64,000 bases of DNA from Streptomyces sp. WMMB303 (GTDB lineage Bacteria > Actinomycetota > Actinomycetes > Streptomycetales > Streptomycetaceae), in contig NZ_JARKIN010000001.1 in NCBI RefSeq assembly GCF_029351045.1, positions 4,948,501 through 5,012,500 on the forward strand. Direction: 5' to 3'. This document shows, piece by piece, positions 23,387-38,376 of the stretch. Positions within the stretch are counted from its first letter, which is position 1; each line of letters opens with the position of its first letter. Under the pieces are notes generated by a model. It was not told the origin of the DNA and did not search any database. It saw nothing but the letters and a program-made list of their open reading frames with translations. The translations under genes were made by a program, and so were the position numbers.

Positions 23387-24073
23387 TCACATCTCGAAGC
23401 GGTAGCCCATGCCGGCCTCGGTCACGAAGTGCCGGGGGTGCGAGGGGTCCGCCTCCAGTTTGCGGCGGAGCTGGGCCATGTAGACGCGCAGGTAGTTGGT
23501 CTCGGTGCCGTAGGAGGGGCCCCAGACCTCCCTGAGCAGCTGCTTCTGGCTCACCAGCCGCCCGGGGCTGCGGACCAGCACCTCCAGCAGGTGCCACTCG
23601 GTCGGGGTGAGCCGTACGTCGCCGCCGTCGCGGTGCACCTTCTTCGCCGCCAGGTCGACGGTGAAGGTCCGGGTCTCGATGACCCCGGATCCGTCCGGCA
23701 TCCCGGCCGGGGGCTCCGCGCGCCGGACGGCGGCGCGCAGCCGCGCCAGCAGCTCGTCCATGCCGAACGGCTTGGTGACATAGTCGTCGGCTCCCGCGTC
23801 CAGCGCCTCCACCTTCTCGTCGGAGGTCTGCCGCGCGGAGAGCACCAGGATCGGCACCCGGGTCCAGCCGCGGATGCCGTGGATGACGTCCACGCCGTCC
23901 ATGTCGGGCAGGCCCAGGTCCAGGACGACGGCGTCGGGATGCCGGTCGGCCGCCATGCGCAGCGCGGTCGCGCCGTCGTGCGCGGCGTCCACCTCGTATT
24001 TGCGCGCCTTGAGGTTGATCACGAGGGCGCGGACGATCTGGGGTTCGTCGTCGACCACGAGCACCCGGTGCAT
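23387..24073 (-). CDS. kdpE: Response regulator KdpE
   Basis: A 228-residue OmpR-family regulator: receiver domain with phosphoacceptor Asp52 (VVLDLGLPD) and switch Lys in DDYVTKPFG. A winged-helix DNA-binding domain follows (RLTPTEWHLLEVLVRSPGRL and TNYLRVYMAQLRRKLE). ATG 24073 has a GAGGAAG ribosome site. It is the last gene of the kdp operon, downstream of its sensor KdpD. It should activate kdp transcription under K+ limitation; repeats at 31642-31710 are candidate targets. Confidence 0.95.
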   Translation of the reverse strand: MHRVLVVDDEPQIVRALVINLKARKYEVDAAHDGATALRMAADRHPDAVVLDLGLPDMDGVDVIHGIRGWTRVPILVLSARQTSDEKVEALDAGADDYVTKPFGMDELLARLRAAVRRAEPPAGMPDGSGVIETRTFTVDLAAKKVHRDGGDVRLTPTEWHLLEVLVRSPGRLVSQKQLLREVWGPSYGTETNYLRVYMAQLRRKLEADPSHPRHFVTEAGMGYRFEM

Positions 24074-24102: not shown

Positions 24103-26745
24103 TCAGGCGCCGGAGCGCTGCGACTGGAGCTGCGGTCTGCCGGTGCCGGCCGGCAGCCGGCCGCGCGCGGGTCCACGGCCGTGCGCCGCGCGCAGAGTGA
24201 GCACCATGGTCATGCCACCCCCGGGGGTGTCCTCGGCCTCCAGCGTGCCGCCCATCGCCTCGGCGAAGCCGCGGGCGACGGCCAGGCCGAGGCCGACCCC
24301 GGCACCGCCGGGTGCGTCGCCATAGCGCTGAAAGGGTTCGAAGATGCGGTCCTTGTCGCTGTCGGGCACCCCGGGGCCGCGGTCGGTGCAGCGCAGCTCG
24401 ACCCGGTCGGCCAGCGCGCTCGCGCGCACCAGCACCTTCTTCCCCTCCGGGCTGTACTTGACCGCGTTCTCCACCAGGTTGGCGACCGTGCGCTCCAGCA
24501 GCCCCGGATCGACGGCGACCAGCGGCAGCGCCTCGGCGACGGCCAGCCGCACGCTGCCCTCGGGCACGCCGCCCAGAGCCTTGGGCACGACCTCCTCCAG
24601 GCTGATGTCCTTGATGTGCGGCCGGACGGTGCCGGTGTGCAGCCGGGACATGTCCAGCAGATTGCCGACGAGGTTGTCCAGCCTGTCCGCGCCCTCCTCG
24701 ATCGCCCCCAGCAGCTCCGCCTCGTCCTCCGCCGACCACTGCACGTCGTCGGAGCGCAGCGAGGAGACGGACGCCTTGATGGCCGCCAGCGGGGTGCGCA
24801 GGTCGTGCGAGACGGCGGCCAGCAGCGCGGTGCGGATCCGGTTGCCCTCGGCCAGCTCGCGGGCCTGTTCGGCCTCGCCCAGCAGCCGCTGCCGGTCGAG
24901 CACCCCGGCGGCCTGTGCGGCGAACGCGGCGAGCACCCTGCGGTCCTCGGCGGGCAGCACCCGCCCGGAGAGCACCAGCATCATGCTGTCGCCGACCGGC
25001 ATGTCCGTCTCGCCGTCCTCCGGCGCGGCCAGCCGCTTGCCGGAGCCCGTGGTGCCGACGCTGCCCGCGCAGGTCCAGGCGGCCCGCTCGGCGGTGCGCT
25101 CCAGCAGGGCGACACCGTCCATGGCGAAGGTCTCCCTGACCCGCTCCAGGAGCGCCTCCAGGCTGGGCCCGCTGCCCGGGCCGCCGCCCGCGTGCGGGGC
25201 CTCGCCGCGCAGCACGCTGCCCGCCAGCGCGGAGAGGATCTCCGACTCGGCGCGCAGCCTGGCCGCCTGCTGGGTGCGCCGGGCCGCCACGTCCACCACC
25301 GAGGCGACGGCCACGGCGACGGCGAAGAAGACGGCGAGCGAGACGACGTTGCGGCCGTCGCTGATGGTCCAGGTACGGACCGGCTCGGTGAAGAAGTAGT
25401 TCAGCAGCGCCGAGCAGACCGCGGCGGAGGCCAGCGCCGGCAGCAGTCCGCCCACGAGTCCGGCGGTGACCGTGAGCACCAGGAAGAGCAGCACGTCGTT
25501 GGCGAAGCCGATGCCCGGCTCGGTGGCCAGCATCAGGAACGTCAGCAGCACGGGAGCCCCGAAGGCGGTCAGCCAGCCGGCGACGACGCGCGCCGTGCCC
25601 AGCCGGGCCGCCCGGGTGCCGGGCAGCCCGCGCCCCCGGGCGACCTCCTCGTGGGTGACGATGTGCACGTCCAGGTCCGGTCCCGAGTCCCGGGCGACGG
25701 TGGCGCCGACCCCGGGTCCGAACACGTACTGCCAGGTCCGGCGGCGGGAGGAGCCGAGCACGATCTGGGTGGCGTTGTGGCCCCGCGCGAACTCCAGCAG
25801 GGCCTGGGGGATGTCGTCGCCGATGACGTGGTGGTACGTACCGCCCAGGTCCTCCACGAGGGTGCGCTGGACGGCGAGTTCCTGCGGGGAGGCGGGGGTG
25901 AGGCCGTCGGCGTGGGAGATGTGGACGGCCAGGATCTCGCTGCCCGAGCCCTTGGCGGCCATCCGGGCGGCGCGGCGGATGAGGGTGCGGCCCTCGGGAC
26001 CGCCGGTGAGCCCGACGACGATCCGCTCGCGGGCCTGCCAGGTGGTGCGTATGCGGTGCTCGGAGCGGTACTGCTGGAGGTACTCGTCGACCCGGTCGGC
26101 CGTCCACAGCAGGGCCAGTTCGCGCAGGGCGGTCAGGTTGCCGGGCCGGAAGTAGTTGGACAGGGCCGCGTCGACCTTGTCCGGGGCGTAGACGTTGCCG
26201 TGCGCCATCCGGCGGCGCAGCGCCTGTGGCGACATGTCGACCAGTTCGATCTGGTCGGCGCGCCGCACCACCTCGTCGGGCACGGTCTCGCGCTGCCGGA
26301 CGCCGGTGATGGACTCCACCACGTCGCCGAGCGACTCCAGGTGCTGGATGTTGACGGTGGAGACGACGTCGATCCCCGCGGCGAGCAGTTCCTCGACGTC
26401 CTGCCAGCGCTTGGCGTTCCGGGAGCCGGGCACGTTGGTGTGGGCCAGTTCGTCCACGACGGCCACGGCGGGGCGGCGGGCGAGCACCGCGTCGGTGTCC
26501 ATCTCGGTGAGGTCCGTGCCGCGGTGTGTGGTCCCGCGGCGCGGCACCTGCTCCAGCCCGTGCAGCAGCGCCTCGGTCCGCGGACGGTCGTGGTGCTCGA
26601 CGAACCCGACCACCACGTCGGTGCCCCGCTCCATCCGGCGGTGCGCCTCGGAGAGCACGGCGTAGGTCTTGCCGACGCCGGGCGCCGCGCCGAGGAAGAC
26701 CCGCAGCCGTCCCCGCCGCCGCTGCTGCTGCGTTCCGGACACCAT
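24103..26745 (-). CDS. kdpD: Turgor/potassium sensor histidine kinase KdpD
   Basis: From ATG 26745 the protein has 880 residues. It has a KdpD N-terminal domain with Walker A (FLGAAPGVGKTYAVL) and LAHTNVPGSRNAKRWQDVEE, and a universal-stress-like domain. Four closely spaced membrane segments follow, then a GAF-like region, the His-kinase dimerisation motif AAVSHDLRTPLAA and the ATPase lid (LVENAVKYSPEG, GAGVGLGLAVARGF). GTG 26760 is an alternative start. It senses low K+ or osmotic stress and phosphorylates KdpE. About 240 bases with a strong hairpin separate it from kdpC. Confidence 0.95.
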   Translation of the reverse strand: MVSGTQQQRRRGRLRVFLGAAPGVGKTYAVLSEAHRRMERGTDVVVGFVEHHDRPRTEALLHGLEQVPRRGTTHRGTDLTEMDTDAVLARRPAVAVVDELAHTNVPGSRNAKRWQDVEELLAAGIDVVSTVNIQHLESLGDVVESITGVRQRETVPDEVVRRADQIELVDMSPQALRRRMAHGNVYAPDKVDAALSNYFRPGNLTALRELALLWTADRVDEYLQQYRSEHRIRTTWQARERIVVGLTGGPEGRTLIRRAARMAAKGSGSEILAVHISHADGLTPASPQELAVQRTLVEDLGGTYHHVIGDDIPQALLEFARGHNATQIVLGSSRRRTWQYVFGPGVGATVARDSGPDLDVHIVTHEEVARGRGLPGTRAARLGTARVVAGWLTAFGAPVLLTFLMLATEPGIGFANDVLLFLVLTVTAGLVGGLLPALASAAVCSALLNYFFTEPVRTWTISDGRNVVSLAVFFAVAVAVASVVDVAARRTQQAARLRAESEILSALAGSVLRGEAPHAGGGPGSGPSLEALLERVRETFAMDGVALLERTAERAAWTCAGSVGTTGSGKRLAAPEDGETDMPVGDSMMLVLSGRVLPAEDRRVLAAFAAQAAGVLDRQRLLGEAEQARELAEGNRIRTALLAAVSHDLRTPLAAIKASVSSLRSDDVQWSAEDEAELLGAIEEGADRLDNLVGNLLDMSRLHTGTVRPHIKDISLEEVVPKALGGVPEGSVRLAVAEALPLVAVDPGLLERTVANLVENAVKYSPEGKKVLVRASALADRVELRCTDRGPGVPDSDKDRIFEPFQRYGDAPGGAGVGLGLAVARGFAEAMGGTLEAEDTPGGGMTMVLTLRAAHGRGPARGRLPAGTGRPQLQSQRSGA

Positions 26746-26954
26746 GCCCCCTATTGTCACCGCTTTCCGTTCCTGGTCATGCGGCGCGGGCGGGGCCGGG
26801 CGTCAGGGTTCCGTATGGATCGCTCGGCGGGCACCGGGCGCTGGGGCCCGGCCGCGGGCAGGCAGTCGGCGCCTGCCCGCGGGTCCGCCCCGGCCCCGCC
26901 GCAGTGGGCGGGCCGGGACGGACCGGGTGCGGGAGCCCGCGCGGCGGGGAGGCC

Positions 26955-26983: not shown

Positions 26984-27577
26984 TCAGCGGGACGCTGCCG
27001 CGGCGCGCACGGCCACGTTCAGCTTCAGCACGTTCACATGTTCCTCGCCCAGGAATCCGGCGCCGCGGCCCTCCGTGTGCGCGGCCACCAGAGCGCGCAC
27101 CGCCTGCGCGGGCAGCCTGTTGGCCCGGGCGACCCGCGCGCTCTGGATCTTCGCGTACCGGGGAGAGATGTGCGGGTCGAGGGCCGATCCGGAGCCGGTC
27201 ACCGCGTCGGGGGGCACCACTGCGGGCGGCACCCCGTTCAGCTCGGCGACCTTGCGCCGGGCCTCCCGTACGGACGCGACCAGCCGCGGGTCGCTCGCGC
27301 CGAGCTGACCGGACCCGGTGGCGCGCGGGTCGTAGCCGGAGTGCGAGGGGCGGCCGTGGAACCACTTCCGCCCGCGCCACTGCTGGCCGATCAGGGCCGA
27401 ACCGACCTCCTCGCCCGCCACCCGCACCGGGGAGCCGTTCGCCTTCTCGGGGAAGGCGGCCTGGGCCACACCGGTCACCGCCAGCGGGTAGAGGACCCCG
27501 CACAGGACCGTCAGTGCGAGCAGGGCGCGGCCGGCGGCCCAGCCGAGCCGGGCGGCGTTGCGTACAGCTGTGTTCAT
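26984..27577 (-). CDS. kdpC: Potassium-transporting ATPase subunit KdpC
   Basis: A 197-residue protein with one N-terminal membrane segment (ALLALTVLCGVLYPLAVTGV). An external domain carries the family motifs SALIGQQWRGRKWFHGRPS, SGSGSALDPHISPRYA-like TGSGSALDPHISP and VARANRLPAQAVRALV. KdpC stabilises the K+-bound KdpFABC complex. Its start is five bases after the kdpB stop, so it belongs to the same operon. Confidence 0.95.
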   Translation of the reverse strand: MNTAVRNAARLGWAAGRALLALTVLCGVLYPLAVTGVAQAAFPEKANGSPVRVAGEEVGSALIGQQWRGRKWFHGRPSHSGYDPRATGSGQLGASDPRLVASVREARRKVAELNGVPPAVVPPDAVTGSGSALDPHISPRYAKIQSARVARANRLPAQAVRALVAAHTEGRGAGFLGEEHVNVLKLNVAVRAAAASR

Positions 27578-27582
27578 CTCGC

Positions 27583-29732
<2,150 letters not shown>

Positions 29733-29733
<1 letters not shown>

Positions 29734-31394
29734 CAGGAGAGTCCCTCCGCGAGCGGCCCCAGAGCCAGGGCCGGGAAGAAGGTGAGTCCGGTGACGATCA
29801 GCACGGAGCCGACCAGCAAGCCGGAGAAGAGCGGCTTTTCGGTGCGCAGGGTGCCTGCCGTGACGGGCACCGGCGCCTGCCGGGCCAGCGAACCGGCCAG
29901 CGCCAGGACGCACACCATCGGCAGGAACCGGCCGAACAGCATGCACAGGCCCAGCGTGGTGTTGAAGAACGGCGTGTCCGCGCCGAATCCGGCGAAGGCG
30001 CTGCCGTTGTTGTTGGCGGCCGAGGTGTAGGCGTACAGCACTTCGCTGAAGCCGTGCGCCCCGATGTTGGTCATCGCCCGCTCGCCGTCGGGCAGTGCCA
30101 TGGCGAGCGCGGTGCCGCCCAGTACCAGAGCGGGAGTGCTCAGCAGAAAGCAGGCCGCGTACTTGATCTCGCGGGTGCCGACCTTCTTGCCCAGGTACTC
30201 GGGCGTGCGGCCGACCATCAGCCCGGCGAGGAAGACGGCGATGACGGCCATGATCAGCATGCCGTACAGCCCGGAGCCGACCCCGCCCGGTGCGATCTCT
30301 CCGAGCATCATGCCCAACAGCGCCACCCCGCCGCCGAAGGCGGTGTAGGAGTCGTGGAAGGAGTTGACGGCGCCGGTCGAGGTCATCGTCGTGGAGGCGG
30401 CGAACAGTGCGGAGGCGCCCGCTCCGAAGCGCTGCTCCTTGCCCTCGGCGGCGCCACCGGCGAGCTGGGCCGCCGTGCCCTGGTGCGCGAACTCGGCGGC
30501 GGTGATCGCGGCGACCCCGGCGAGCCAGATGACGCCCATCGCGGCGAGGACCGCGTACCCCTGGCGCACGTTCCCGACCATCGTGCCGAACGTTCGGGTC
30601 AGGGAGAACGGGATGACGAGGAGCAGGAAGACCTCCAGCAGGTTGCTGAAGCCGTTCGGGTTCTCGAAGGGGTGTGCGGAGTTGGCGTTGAAGAAGCCGC
30701 CGCCGTTGGTGCCCAGTTCCTTGATGGCCTCCTGGGAGGCGACGGGTCCGCCCGGGATGTGCTGGGTGGCTCCGGAGAGGGTCTGCACCTCGTGCATCCC
30801 GGCGAGGTTCTGCACCACGCCGGTCGCCACCAGGGCGAGCGCGCCGAGGAACGCGACCGGCAGCAGGATGCGCACCACTCCGCGCACCATGTCGGTCCAG
30901 AAGTTGCCCAGTTCCCCGGTGCGCGACCGGGCGAAGCCGCGGACGAGGGCGATGGCGACGGCCATCCCCACGGCGGCCGAGACGAAGTTCTGCACCGCCA
31001 GCCCGGTCAGCTGCACCAGATGGCCCATGGCGGACTCGCCCGCGTAGGACTGCCAGTTGGTGTTGGTGACGAAGGAGGCGGCGGTGTTGAACGCCTGGTC
31101 CGGGTCGAGTGCGCGGAATCCGAGGGACAGCGGCAGCCTGTCCTGGAGCCGCTGCAGGGCGTAGAGGAAGAGCACTCCGGCGGCCGAGAAGGCCAGCACC
31201 GCGCGGATATAGGCGGGTGCGCGCATCCCGGCGTCCGGGTCGGTGCCGACGCAGCGGTGGACAAGCCGCTCGACGCGCAGATGCCGGTCGGACCGGTAGA
31301 CGGCGGCCATGTAGTCGCCGAACGGCCGGTGCACCAGCGCGAGCGCCCCGACGAGCGCCACCACCTGGAGCACAGCTGCGAGGGATGTACTCAT
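29733..31394 (-). CDS. kdpA: Potassium-transporting ATPase channel subunit KdpA
   Basis: The 553-residue membrane protein has ten segments and the four selectivity-filter-like loops of the SKT superfamily, including [13 protein letters not shown] and [20 protein letters not shown]; a later one is [14 protein letters not shown]. It binds and conducts K+, coupled to the P-type ATPase KdpB. The start is six bases after the kdpF stop. Length and motifs agree with a functional protein. Confidence 0.96.
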
Positions 31395-31400
31395 CGGCGC

Positions 31401-31490
31401 TCAGAACCTCTCCGGGAAGAGCAGGGCGCAGACGAGGTAGCCCAGCAGCGCGAGGGCCACCATGAGCCCCGCGGCGTTCTCGGCGCTCAC
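31401..31490 (-). CDS. kdpF: Potassium-transporting ATPase small subunit KdpF
   Basis: The 29-codon frame from GTG 31490 reads [19 protein letters not shown] then [10 protein letters not shown]. It is one membrane helix ending in the KdpF-typical LLFPERF tail. KdpF is a lipid-like stabiliser of the KdpABC complex. The start codon overlaps the stop of the microprotein gene upstream (GTGA), and kdpA follows six bases later. Confidence 0.9.
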
Positions 31491-31570
31491 AGCCGGTCCA
31501 TCCCTCTGGCGACGAGCGACAGCAGTGCGAAGACCGCGACGGTGGTGGCGGCGAAGGCCAGATCGGCCAT
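31487..31570 (-). CDS. Uncharacterised 27-residue membrane microprotein heading the kdp operon
   Basis: ATG 31570 has an excellent AGGAG ribosome site seven bases upstream. The frame reads [20 protein letters not shown] then ARGMDRL, a single predicted membrane helix followed by a basic tail. Its stop overlaps the kdpF GTG start (GTGA), so the two are translationally coupled. It is not KdpF, which is encoded next. It may be another small subunit of the Kdp complex or a leader peptide whose translation controls kdpF. Function is inferred from context only. Confidence 0.75.
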
Positions 31571-31641
31571 CGTGTGCTCCTGGTGAGTAGGTTGTGCTGA
31601 CCCACCCAGAAAACCCCCGCCGACGGCGTACGCCCCGGGCG

Positions 31642-31710
31642 TTGACGTCCCTCATACACGTCCGGGGGCGCTCTTGACGGGGCCCATACATCCTTGACGC
31701 GGTCCCTACG
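31642..31710. promoter_or_regulatory. Three direct repeats upstream of the kdp operon (candidate KdpE sites)
   Basis: Three copies of a 17-base element occur on the plus strand: TTGACGTCCCTCATACA (31642-31658), TTGACGGGGCCCATACA (31674-31690) and TTGACGCGGTCCCTACG (31694-31710). The start-to-start spacings are 32 and 20 bases, near three and two helical turns. They sit 70-140 bases upstream of the operon's first start codon. Direct repeats suit an OmpR-family regulator such as KdpE; the assignment is inferred. Confidence 0.6.
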
Positions 31711-31765
31711 CGCCTGCCGCGACTCCGCACGCGCTCGCGGCGGGTCGCACGACAAGCACGACAAG

Positions 31766-31792
31766 AAGGCCGGGCCCGACGGGCCCGGCCTT
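31766..31792 (-). terminator. Rho-independent-type terminator after the DUF3710 gene
   Basis: A perfect 12-base stem (31766-31777 with 31781-31792) has a three-base loop. On the minus strand it follows the DUF3710 stop and is trailed by TTCTTGT, giving a weak T tract. It insulates the kdp promoter from upstream transcription. Confidence 0.8.
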
Positions 31793-31809
31793 CGCAGCAG
31801 CACGCCGCG

Positions 31810-32595
31810 CTAGCGCACCTCGGAGATCTCCGGGCCACGCTGGAGCTTGTCGAGGCCGCCCGCGAACCGGGAGCCTTCTTCCACCGTCTCCTGCTGCACT
31901 CCGTCCGGCACCATCTGCGCGTCCTCGGGCAGCTTCAGGACGATGGGGTCGCGCGGCGCCATCGGCCCCTCACCGCGCACCACGACCGTGTCCCGGAAAA
32001 TCTGCTCCAGCACACCGGCCGCCTCGGGCTGGACCGCGCCCTGGCCGGAGATCACCCCGCGCAGGAACCATCGCGGTCCGTCCACCCCGACGAACCGGAC
32101 GACCTGCACGCCGCCCGTGCCGTCCGGCAGCTGCACCGGGACCTGCGCCCGCAGCTCCCAGCCCAGCGGCCCCTCGGCCTCGTCGATGACGCCGCCCTGC
32201 TGGGTGATGCCGGAGGCGATCTCCTCACGCACCTCGTCCCAGATGCCCTCGCGCTTGGGCGCGGCGAACGCCTGGAGCTGGACGGCGCTGTCCTGCAGCA
32301 CGACGGTCGCCGCGACGATCGCGTCACCCGCGACCTCGACCCGCAGCTCCATGCCCTCGACGCCGGGGATGAACAGGCCGCCCAGGTCGACCCTGCCGGA
32401 GTCGGGCTCGGTGACCTCCTCGATGTCCCAGGGACCGTCCGGACGGGGCGCCGGAGGCAGCTTGACCCGGGTCTCTCCGGTGTCGGCTTCGGCGTCCGCG
32501 CCGTCCTGCGGCTCGTCCTCGCCTTCCTGTTCCGTCTCGAACTCGTCCGAGGTGCCCGTGGGCTCTTCGCTCTTCTTGCGACGACGTCCGAACAC
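31810..32595 (-). CDS. DUF3710 protein
   Basis: The 261-residue protein has a basic start MFGRRRKKSEE, an acidic disordered stretch to about residue 40, then the DUF3710 domain (GPWDIEEVTEPDSGRVDLGG, FIPGVEGMELRVEV). No membrane segment or catalytic motif is apparent. It starts one base after the dut stop, as in many actinobacteria. Function is unknown; a link to dUTP metabolism rests only on neighbourhood. Confidence 0.9.
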   Translation of the reverse strand: MFGRRRKKSEEPTGTSDEFETEQEGEDEPQDGADAEADTGETRVKLPPAPRPDGPWDIEEVTEPDSGRVDLGGLFIPGVEGMELRVEVAGDAIVAATVVLQDSAVQLQAFAAPKREGIWDEVREEIASGITQQGGVIDEAEGPLGWELRAQVPVQLPDGTGGVQVVRFVGVDGPRWFLRGVISGQGAVQPEAAGVLEQIFRDTVVVRGEGPMAPRDPIVLKLPEDAQMVPDGVQQETVEEGSRFAGGLDKLQRGPEISEVR

Positions 32596-35920: not shown

Positions 35921-37240
35921 TCAGAGCGGCAGCGTCACCCGCATCACCAGGCCGCCGTCCTCGCGCGGTACGGCCGAGACCGCACCGCCGTGCGCCCGCG
36001 CGACCGAGCGCACGATCGACAACCCGAGCCCGACCCCCTTGTCACTGCCCGTCCGCTCCGTACGCAGACGCCGGAACGGCTCGAAGAGGTTGTCCACCTC
36101 GTAGGCCGGGACGACGGGTCCGGTGTTCTCGACGCTGAGCACCGCCTGCCCCGGCTGGGCCTCCGTACTGACCGAGACCCATCCGCCCGCACGCAGGTTG
36201 TAGCGCACGGCATTCTGCACCAGGTTCAGTGCGACGCGCTCCAGGAGTACCCCGTTGCCCTGTACATATGTGGGCTGCCGTACTCCGCGCAACTCGACGC
36301 CCTTGGTCTCGGCCTCTCCGCGGGCCTGCTCGACCGCCTGCGAGGCCACCTCGGCCAGATCCACCGGCTTGCGGTCCACCAGCTCGTTCTCGCTCCGTGC
36401 GAGCAGCAGCAGCCCCTCCACGAGCTGCTCGCTGCGCTCGTTGGTGGCCAGCAGCGTCTTGGCCAGCTGCTGCAGCTCCGGCGAGGCGTCCGGATCGGCG
36501 AGCTGCACCTCGAGCAGCGTCCGGTTGATCGCCAGCGGGGTGCGCAACTCGTGCGAGGCGTTGCCCACGAAGCGCTGCTGCGCGGTGAAGGCACGCTCCA
36601 GCCGGTCCAGCATGTCGTCGAAGGTGTCGGACAGCTCCTTGAGCTCGTCGTCCGGGCCCTCCAGCTCGATCCGCTTGTGCAGGTCCGAGCCCGCCACCTG
36701 GCGTGCGGTGCGGGTGATGCGGCCCAGCGGCGAGAGCACCCGGCCCGCCATCACGTACCCGAAGGCGAACGCGGCCACGGCGAGCCCGAGCAGCGCGAGC
36801 AGGGAGCGGCGCAGCAACCCGTCCAGTGCCATCCTGCGCTGCGCCTCCGCGCACTCCGACAGGCGTTGCATGAACACATCGCTGGGGAGTGTTCCGGTCA
36901 GCCCCTGGCAGTCAGAGGTCGGCTGGACCTCCCCGTTGAGGATGCGGAACGAGACATGGCTGGCGTCGTCCAGCGCCTGCGCCGCCAGCAGATAGATGAT
37001 CGTCAGCAGCAGCATCCCGGCGATCAGGAACATTCCGCCGTACAGCAGCGTGAGCCGTATCCGGATGGTGGGGCGCAGCAGGGGCAAGGACCGGGGGGTC
37101 TCGCGCGGGTCCCAACTCGGTTTGGGGGGTGTGCGCGGCGGGGCGCCGCCGGAGCGGTCGCCCGCCTCCGGGCCGGCGGCACCGGGGGTCCCCCGGGAAG
37201 CGGGGGAACCCGGGGATTCGGGAGAAGTGGAAGGGGCCAT
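35921..37240 (-). CDS. cutS: Sensor histidine kinase CutS
   Basis: The 439-residue kinase has a Pro-rich N-terminal tail, a first membrane segment (LLYGGMFLIAGMLLLTIIYL), a short external loop with two cysteines (DCQGLT and LSECAEAQ) and a second membrane segment. HAMP, the phosphoacceptor motif NASHELRTPLA and the ATPase boxes (LVQNAVRYNLRAGG, GVGLGLSIVRSVARAHGG) follow. It starts five bases after the CutR stop. The gene pair and its position between DUF4193 and the inositol phosphatase match cutRS of streptomycetes, which controls secretion stress and affects antibiotic production. The external cysteine pair could sense redox or disulfide state. Confidence 0.88.
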   Translation of the reverse strand: MAPSTSPESPGSPASRGTPGAAGPEAGDRSGGAPPRTPPKPSWDPRETPRSLPLLRPTIRIRLTLLYGGMFLIAGMLLLTIIYLLAAQALDDASHVSFRILNGEVQPTSDCQGLTGTLPSDVFMQRLSECAEAQRRMALDGLLRRSLLALLGLAVAAFAFGYVMAGRVLSPLGRITRTARQVAGSDLHKRIELEGPDDELKELSDTFDDMLDRLERAFTAQQRFVGNASHELRTPLAINRTLLEVQLADPDASPELQQLAKTLLATNERSEQLVEGLLLLARSENELVDRKPVDLAEVASQAVEQARGEAETKGVELRGVRQPTYVQGNGVLLERVALNLVQNAVRYNLRAGGWVSVSTEAQPGQAVLSVENTGPVVPAYEVDNLFEPFRRLRTERTGSDKGVGLGLSIVRSVARAHGGAVSAVPREDGGLVMRVTLPL

Positions 37241-37245
37241 CGACG

Positions 37246-37899
37246 TCAGATCCGGTACCCCGCGCCCGGCACGGTGACGATCACCGGTGGCTCACCGAGC
37301 TTGCGGCGCAGCGTCATCACCGTCACCCGCACCACATTGGTGAACGGGTCGGTGTTCTCGTCCCACGCCTTCTCCAGGAGCTGCTCGGCGGAGACCACAC
37401 TGCCCTCGCCCCGCATCAGCACCTCCAGCACCGCGAACTCCTTGGGCGCCAGCTGGATCTCCCGGCCGTCCCGGGAGACCTCGCGGCGCCCCGGGTCCAG
37501 CCGGATGCCGGCCCGCTCCAGCACCGGCGGGAGGGCTGTGGTCGTGCGCCGCCCCAGCGCCCGCACGCGGGCCGTCAGCTCGGAGAAGGCGAAGGGCTTG
37601 GGCAGGTAGTCGTCGGCGCCCAGCTCCAGGCCCTCGACCCGGTCGCTGACGTCCCCGGAGGCGGTGAGCATCAGCACCCGGGTGGGCAGCCCCAGCTCCA
37701 CGATCCGGCGGCAGACGTCGTCCCCGTGCACCAGCGGCAGGTCCCGGTCGAGTACGACGACGTCGTAGTCGTTGATGTCGACGCGCTCTTGCGCCGCCGC
37801 CCCGTCGTAGACCACATCGACGGCCATGGCCTCTCTGCGGAGGCCCGTCGCCACGGCATCGGCGAGCAGCTGCTCGTCCTCGACGACGAGTACGCGCAC
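37246..37899 (-). CDS. cutR: Response regulator CutR
   Basis: GTG 37899, preceded by GGAAGGAA, gives 217 residues. The receiver domain has phosphoacceptor Asp51 (VVVLDRDLPLVHGDD) and GADDYLPKPFAF. The OmpR-type winged helix includes LAPKEFAVLEVLMRGEGSVV and NVVRVTVMTLRRKLGEPP. The longer frame to 38358 is not used because the ribosome site and receiver domain fix the start. Direct repeats about 145 bases upstream suggest autoregulation. Confidence 0.88.
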   Translation of the reverse strand: MRVLVVEDEQLLADAVATGLRREAMAVDVVYDGAAAQERVDINDYDVVVLDRDLPLVHGDDVCRRIVELGLPTRVLMLTASGDVSDRVEGLELGADDYLPKPFAFSELTARVRALGRRTTTALPPVLERAGIRLDPGRREVSRDGREIQLAPKEFAVLEVLMRGEGSVVSAEQLLEKAWDENTDPFTNVVRVTVMTLRRKLGEPPVIVTVPGAGYRI

Positions 37900-38039
37900 G
37901 GCGCTGTTCCTTCCCTGGATACGGATGGGGGATCGTGCTCCCCATCGTGCCCCGGAACCCGGTAAATCGACGGTAAGAGCAGAGGTGGGAGGCCGGGCGC
38001 GCACTCCGGCACGAGCCGCCGGCACATTTTCGGGGCGGT

Positions 38040-38057
38040 TGAGGTTTCTCTGAGGTT
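38040..38057. promoter_or_regulatory. Candidate CutR box upstream of cutR
   Basis: Two perfect TGAGGTT repeats start at 38040 and 38051, exactly 11 bases (one helical turn) apart; on the minus strand this reads AACCTCA-N4-AACCTCA. Tandem repeats with 11-base period are the usual binding mode of OmpR-family regulators. It lies between the divergent cutR and 53-residue genes. Identity of the binder is inferred. Confidence 0.55.
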
Positions 38058-38214
38058 CCGGTTGGGGAGGACCTGAGCACCACCCACGATCACGCCCTGT
38101 GCGCAGGGTGCCACGACGCACCTCCGACGCAGTCCGGGGACCACGCCGTGATCGGGCACGCACCACTTCCCTCGGCACACCCCGTGCCACCGACCCGCGA
38201 CGAGGGGGCACACC

Positions 38215-38376
38215 ATGGACGCATTCACCGCAGGCATCCTGCAGCGTATACGGACCACCGAGTCCGACCTGCACCGCGCACGTGAATCCGGCGACGACTT
38301 CCTCGTGGACGTCGAGCAGTCGGAGCTGGAGGACCTCCGCCGCCTGGCCGCCGAGCACGGCGTGCAGGTCGCCTGA
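38215..38376 (+). CDS. Conserved 53-residue helical protein
   Basis: ATG 38215 begins MDAFTAGILQRIRTTESDLH, continuing as ARESGDDFLVDVEQSELEDL and a C-terminal RRLAAEHGVQVA. It is highly charged, predicted to be a helical hairpin, and too short for routine ORF calls. Its codon use is typical of the surrounding genes, and it is followed directly by a strong terminator. A similar small gene sits at this place beside cutR in other streptomycetes, as far as I recall. Function is unknown. Confidence 0.78.
   Translation: MDAFTAGILQRIRTTESDLHRARESGDDFLVDVEQSELEDLRRLAAEHGVQVA

Follow-up and report, generated by a model that had tools for sequence, protein, structure and literature searches.

The KdpFABC complex is a textbook K+ pump, and its operon in the window (the whole 64,000-nucleotide stretch of DNA analysed here) raises the question of whether the very small open reading frame at its head is a gene and, if so, what its product might do. 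The frame lies at 31487..31570 on the minus strand, as do all the window genes named below, and runs from ATG to TGA over 27 codons. It is preceded by an AGGAG ribosome site (31577..31581, minus strand) with a spacer of 6 to the ATG, and its stop overlaps the GTG start of kdpF as GTGA (31487..31490, minus strand). The encoded 27-residue microprotein would form one helix, with a best 19-residue Kyte-Doolittle mean of 2.03. The frame, its good ribosome site, its single helix and its GTGA overlap had all been claimed in a preliminary description of the sequence, and each was borne out, as was the claim that kdpF follows directly: the 29-aa product of kdpF (31401..31490, GTG start) exceeds the cut-offs of both PF09604 (32.7 bits; cut-off 21.2) and TIGR02115 (33.0 bits; cut-off 26.85).

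The remainder of the operon is conventional in order. kdpA (29733..31394) matches TIGR00680 at 689.9 bits, as well as PF03814, and its stop is overlapped by the start of kdpB (27583..29733; TIGR01497, 992.7 bits), followed by kdpC (26984..27577; TIGR00681, 164.9 bits against a cut-off of 152.55). The sensor kinase gene kdpD (24103..26760) encodes the Pfam domains KdpD, Usp, DUF4118, HisKA and HATPase_c, all above cut-off; the best NCBIfam match of its product is KdpD at 529.7 bits, under the cut-off of 1123. A kdpE-type response regulator gene follows (23387..24073), whose best match is the KdpE model NF007820 at 244.6 bits, under its cut-off of 325. A second two-component pair, consisting of histidine kinase and response regulator frames, was noticed by eye at 35921-38358 on the same strand, approximately 4 kb upstream of the kdp operon.

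The frame was compared with all frames of 20-40 aa that follow AGGAG, GGAGG, AAGGA or GAGGA on both strands of the 64-kb window (n = 20), among which it alone reaches a 19-residue mean of at least 1.6. As evidence against chance, however, its conservation weighs more than the rarity of such hydrophobicity within the window.

Conservation was assessed in kdp loci from several sources. Among near genomes, 46 of 61 carried kdpA and 30 loci were used; among named genomes, 79 of the 80 loci, which are the best matches listed, were used. Locus L085 was left out of all counts, as its kdpA match begins at residue 100, and L147-L164 were left out as repeats of places already covered; L012 and L056 come from one genome, as do L026 and L061. 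A further sample of 246 genomes, drawn evenly across the phylum, contained kdpA in 45 genomes at 47 places, of which 30 + 15 were read and two fragments (G195 and the second piece of G300) were left out. Loci also came from 27 plasmid records and one E. coli chromosome. Phyla beyond Actinomycetota are represented solely by such records, in 26 loci that were read (E. coli and 25 plasmid records); no claim is made for chromosomal Bacillota, Bacteroidota or the gammaproteobacteria at large.

Relatives were collected by a rule demanding exactly 27 codons, a hydrophobic core and a K, R or Q at any of residues 19-24. Such a frame was present in 86 of the first 109 loci, so that the search of other actinobacterial kdp loci for a small frame before kdpF, proposed in the preliminary description, found a conserved 27-codon frame widely. 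The final collection holds 101 frames including that of the window, L121 having been removed from 102 because its kdpF had been caught instead. Compared with AAGGAGGTG, the ribosome site of these frames matches over five bases in 59, four in 32 and more in 6, and is shorter or lacking in 4. The four-base overlap with the kdpF start (GTGA or ATGA) occurs in 95 of the 101, window included; of the other six, the L024 frame is itself a long-tailed kdpF, kdpF starts farther on in L019, L039 and L075, and in L145 and L165 kdpF does not overlap the frame in the four-base manner. Residue 22 is K or R in every one of the 101 frames, though 31 use CGN codons, a count to be read with the K, R or Q that the collecting rule required within residues 19-24. 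The C-terminus is typically [KR]-G/A-V/C-[DE]-[RK]-L, and the window frame ends G-M-D-R-L. In L084, L094 and L096 (Mycobacterium, including M. asiaticum) and in L125 the frame persists without its C-terminal [KR]xVERL motif, as though the gene were decaying.

Substitutions in the collected frames bear the mark of coding sequence. For the 39 distinct sequences from outside Streptomyces, dN/dS in frame is 0.57 (CI 0.43-0.72), against 1.35 (1.02-1.86) and 1.30 (0.91-1.94) in the remaining forward frames. For the Streptomyces-like set (56 sequences) the in-frame value is 0.62 (CI 0.34-1.09), which is not significant by itself. When the sequences were grouped slightly differently, values for the three reverse frames ranged over 0.86-1.81 outside Streptomyces, where one of them (0.86) also fell below 1, and over 0.84-2.20 within; those for kdpF were 0.70 and 0.57, respectively.

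Profiles provided a second line of evidence. To avoid circularity, these were trained on one group and run on the loci of another in all six reading frames. Seeds from other Actinomycetota placed the best match ahead of kdpA in 58 of the 59 Streptomyces-like loci (56 of 57 distinct genomes), with scores of at least 27 bits there and at most 8.3 bits elsewhere. The window locus (L001) is among the 58 recognised in this way; its frame lies on the same strand as kdpA and within approximately 330 bases upstream. The sole miss was L002, where a 26-codon frame that begins MTD, ends GVERR and is without a hydrophobic core overlaps kdpF, and is perhaps a decayed copy. In the opposite direction, 62 of the 80 loci from other Actinomycetota gave an upstream match to a Streptomyces-seeded profile that exceeded any score elsewhere (maximum 6.8 bits). 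Of the 18 that it missed, L124, L129, L142 and L146 were matched by a profile trained on proteobacteria and Deinococcus, while L096, L113, L116 and L143, none of them seeds, were matched by a pooled profile. The frame of L117 was recognised by eye, and by profiles and reading together L106, L119-L123, L135, L141 and L144 either are without the microprotein or hold frames too weak to call.

The same approach was extended across phyla, with loci in which a candidate had already been seen by eye as targets. These were 18 of the 26 non-Actinomycetota loci, comprising 12 alphaproteobacterial, 4 betaproteobacterial and 2 Deinococcus loci. Actinomycetota seeds put the top-scoring match ahead of kdpA in 17 of these 18 loci, with Sphingobium L176 as the miss. 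Alphaproteobacterial seeds did so in 11 of 12 loci of other groups, six of them deep Actinomycetota, the exception being L142, where a second copy scored higher; seeds from those other groups in turn matched all 12 alphaproteobacterial loci. Some single cross-phylum scores are low (5-10 bits), and it is therefore the overall pattern, not each locus, that carries the claim. In 11 loci taken as negatives (eight non-actinobacterial loci, L002, L106 and L141), upstream profile scores were no higher than 1.8 bits. Reading and profiles found no such frame before kdpF in E. coli (L031), nor in Halobacterium, Lactiplantibacillus, Aeromonas, Arsenophonus, a Klebsiella plasmid, Comamonas or Trichormus, which make up 7 of the 25 other non-actinobacterial loci.

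Searches of 72,556 plasmid records with tblastn were of uneven reach. The Mycetohabitans peptide matched 31 records, 12 at E ≤ 3e-4 and 19 at E 0.6-10, all of which belong to Mycetohabitans, Caballeronia, Rhizobium or Sinorhizobium; the match lay upstream of kdpA in all nine records for which kdpA coordinates were to hand, and in L177, which was read directly. The Streptomyces peptide matched four records, three from Streptomyces and a weak one from Kitasatospora (E 5). The Phyllobacterium peptide matched nothing among the plasmids, its own record included, and tblastn is thus insensitive to such peptides.

Specificity was also examined at the scale of whole genomes. In the 7.1-Mb source genome there is one kdpA and one copy of the microprotein at E ≤ 0.01. 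Across the 246 genomes at the same threshold, an Actinomycetota profile (A2) matched in 18, beside kdpA in 17 of them, the odd match (E 0.007) being on another contig than the kdpA of that genome. A broad profile (A4) matched in 24, beside kdpA in 22, and its 22 matches at E ≤ 0.001 were all upstream of a kdpA, one of them, a second copy, about 1 kb away. In the 201 genomes lacking kdpA, there was no A4 match at E ≤ 0.001 and only two weak ones (E 0.008 and 0.009) inside frames of 464 and 1016 aa, which is about what chance would be expected to give. Seeds of A4 came from 9 of its 22 matched genomes (G000, G054, G146, G149, G205, G226, G235, G277 and G280), leaving 13 that contributed none, and seeds of A2 from 2 of its 17 kdpA-linked genomes (G000 and G054). 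The two profiles jointly mark 24 of the 45 kdpA genomes, to which reading adds three diverged cases (L186, L188 and L199). In 17 of the 44 kdpA genomes read there was no convincing frame, L121 and L123 being weak candidates, and the second kdpA of G150 (L195) is without the microprotein frame.

On the cross-trained profiles, dN/dS, the window frame count and the genome-scale specificity taken together, a chance frame was rejected. The preliminary description had made its gene depend on conservation of the protein beyond that of the DNA, and this was found: profiles cross groups and phyla, and dN/dS is below 1 outside Streptomyces, though not significantly so within. An untranslated stretch conserved for its DNA or RNA elements might seem to accord with the Streptomyces values taken alone, but it is extremely improbable in view of the clear in-frame constraint outside that genus, the peptide profiles that work from one phylum to another, and the ribosome site. 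By these sequence comparisons, the microprotein frame is confirmed as real and conserved as a protein.

Given its place, the first family to consider is KdpF. The two have much in common, KdpF likewise being a small protein, of approximately 29 aa, with one helix and a gene beside kdpA in this operon, and the two genes overlap. The majority C-terminus of KdpF is P-E-[RK]-F (alignment A3), whereas the microprotein lacks this and mostly ends in [DE]-[RK]-L. A duplicate of KdpF was rejected: neither the Pfam nor the NCBIfam model of KdpF matches the window frame, and the hhalign profile-profile probability to KdpF is 1.8. A duplicated, diverged KdpF doing the same job is accordingly very unlikely; it would account for the similar size, the single helix, the adjacent gene, the acidic-basic-hydrophobic tail in which both often end and the loci that have only one of the two, but both genes occur together and directly overlapping in 95 of the 101 collected loci. 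Elsewhere, KdpF-like frames vary in their own right. In Myceligenerans, Oerskovia, Isoptericola and Cellulosimicrobium (L076, L081, L097, L109 and L110) their C-terminus reads LLR[SG]D[RK]xR rather than PE[RK]F, and in six Actinomycetota loci without the microprotein (L185, L187, L193 and L196-L198) there is a distinct KdpF-like type ending approximately LL[RK][GD]GDxR. In Phyllobacterium (L034, 4156-4329) and Rhizobium (L174, 3154-3309), kdpA and kdpB are separated by unnamed genes of 57 and 51 aa, respectively.

Nor did searches place the microprotein in another catalogued family. The window frame and four relatives from other groups have no Pfam or NCBIfam match at cut-off, sub-threshold matches to TIGR02598, TIGR03065 and HemY_N being taken as chance, and no PDB match was found for the microprotein. 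Annotation tends to overlook it: PLSDB, whose gene table is incomplete, has no entry for it in the Streptomyces plasmid L032, and in two Mycetohabitans records (WP_191287747 and WP_212667346) calls it 'potassium ABC transporter ATPase'. Those proteins are of the same family and position, their genes overlapping kdpF at the end, and the name is an automatic and apparently misleading one; the phrase turned up in a single paper, PMC4909258, which in its available part deals with a saliva integron cassette.

The position of the gene varies across the family. In Deinococcus ficus the microprotein starts at the kdpB stop (GTG at 1140 or ATG at 1152; kdpB ends at 1143) and is followed by kdpF and kdpA; in D. 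radiodurans it is likewise downstream of kdpB, with an ATGA overlap into kdpF; and in L186 it comes after the apparent end of kdpB. In Burkholderia arboris it sits between a kdpF-like frame and kdpA. The two small genes are usually both present, but in two Nocardioides loci (L113 and L116) and in L194 the microprotein gene immediately precedes kdpA, the 330-400 bases read containing no recognisable kdpF. It is thus a single-helix gene by kdpA, which it adjoins directly in those three loci and from which it is separated by kdpF in the window.

These variants bear on the preliminary proposal that the frame encodes either a further subunit of the pump or a leader whose translation controls kdpF. 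A leader would deliver ribosomes to kdpF by stop-start coupling or control the operon by stalling or attenuation. The GTGA or ATGA overlap with kdpF would suit such a role, although coupling and a protein function can go together. Codon use is similarly suggestive: residues 22-23 are encoded by AAG in 58 and GGG in 71 of the 101 collected frames, and AAG GGG gives kdpF a purine-rich ribosome site in many Streptomyces. A precedent of a kind is found in Caulobacter, for which the portions of PMC8552747 available describe a structured 5'-UTR of approximately 100 nt before kdpF, RNA reads that drop abruptly once kdpF ends and an influence of Rho, and suggest attenuation in this region; the comparison is by position only. 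Against this, the peptide sequence is recognisable across phyla, and the operon-head position that a leader would occupy is met in the window but not across the family, as Deinococcus and B. arboris illustrate. No Rfam family reached its gathering score in window positions 31300-32000, where the weak matches listed had E of at least 0.025, and a riboswitch or known RNA leader was rejected on this basis. A frame acting solely as a leader is therefore quite unlikely. Of the two halves of the preliminary proposal, the subunit fits better, because the gene is also found behind kdpB, after a kdpF-like frame and, where no kdpF was seen within the bases read, before kdpA.

The upstream DNA bears on how the frame would be transcribed. 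Imperfect direct repeats at 31642..31712, upstream of the microprotein gene (CTTGACG..., spacing 20 and 32), are a probable, predicted KdpE operator. Similar CGTA.GG...CGTCAA-like repeats, some with mismatches, were found by eye upstream of the frame in 11 loci including the window; in Streptomyces, the predicted operator repeats lie upstream of the microprotein frame and not between it and kdpF. In Mycobacterium smegmatis, 5'-RACE placed the kdpFABC transcript start 120 bp before the kdpF GTG, and the transcript is induced at low K+, according to the accessible portions of PMC5401905. That paper, in the same portions, treats the 120-bp stretch as 5'-UTR; in the sequences of other mycobacteria, through which the comparison is made, the frame lies within approximately 80 bases before kdpF (eight named loci: L079, L084, L087, L093, L094, L096, L103 and L117). 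With the operator predicted upstream of the frame and the M. smegmatis start where it is, the frame would be co-transcribed with the operon.

One locus may point to the sensor. In the Actinomycetota locus L142, numbered with kdpA as the plus strand, a second copy of the microprotein (387-521) overlaps by ATGA a gene for a 247-aa DUF4118 protein (518-1261), the end of which overlaps the first copy (1254-1379), which in turn overlaps kdpF (1376). The second copy outscores the first by 0.6 bits with the proteobacteria/Deinococcus-trained profile. The microprotein could on this evidence be a regulatory membrane peptide that binds the DUF4118 domain of KdpD, or links KdpD to the pump, without being a stoichiometric subunit, and the DUF4118 domain of the window KdpD agrees with such a role. 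We regard this reading as unlikely: a second high-scoring copy occurs in L142 alone among the loci scored, the microprotein lies directly before kdpA in the two Nocardioides and L194, and E. coli has KdpD but not the microprotein. The bolder form of the idea is quite unlikely: in many bacteria outside the E. coli lineage, the conserved helix would join the Kdp pump to the DUF4118 membrane domain of KdpD and thereby give the sensor direct access to the pump's state, through a link absent in E. coli, the textbook case.

An accessory helix of the Kdp pump is, from the sequence evidence, the reading that we favour and consider probable, without great confidence. The microprotein moves with kdpF and kdpA, and either small gene can be absent, which suggests separate jobs in one complex, and it is for this reason that the accessory helix is preferred. 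The frame would be translated into a single-pass membrane protein of the Kdp module, synthesised alongside KdpF and KdpA, the genes overlapping. Its acidic N-terminus would lie outside and its basic C-terminus inside, following the positive-inside rule. It may then bind the membrane part of KdpA/KdpB and stabilise or tune the pump, in the way that KdpF acts from a site of its own. That the Kdp system of E. coli works without the microprotein counts against this reading, as do the other kdp loci lacking a convincing frame, the dN/dS within Streptomyces, the reverse frame with a value below 1 and the mycobacterial loci that have lost the C-terminal motif; in lineages such as E. coli the pump would form without this helix.

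Should the microprotein prove to be a subunit or a regulator, the structural picture of Kdp would have a gap in many actinobacteria, rhizobia, Burkholderia relatives and Deinococcus, and there would be a concrete candidate for what tunes the activity of the pump and the sensing by KdpD. In many bacteria the Kdp pump may possess a partner that went unnoticed because work was done in E. coli, which is without the microprotein. Solved KdpA chains that match the window KdpA come from 25 PDB entries with three sequences of 557 aa, which is the length of E. coli K-12 KdpA, and structures from E. coli could not have revealed the microprotein, given that this organism lacks it.

The preliminary description knew of no described function for such a gene, in agreement with the openly licensed PMC literature as far as its accessible text goes. 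Among openly licensed PMC papers, outside which most subscription papers fall, the searches listed none with a title or opening of the abstract that mentions a conserved small gene before kdpF. The microprotein gene is likewise not described in the available portions of PMC8552747, PMC10903887, PMC9650054, PMC10117765, PMC5741613, PMC11133741, PMC11364881, PMC5401905, PMC5716572, PMC13011467, PMC10117811, PMC6255902 or PMC4909258. Single-helix partners of transporters are known as a kind; neither this microprotein family nor its position within the Kdp module appears to have been described. AcrZ, CydX and similar proteins are small single-helix partners of larger membrane complexes. The microprotein would act in like manner on the Kdp pump, a likeness of kind in which no sequence relation is claimed.
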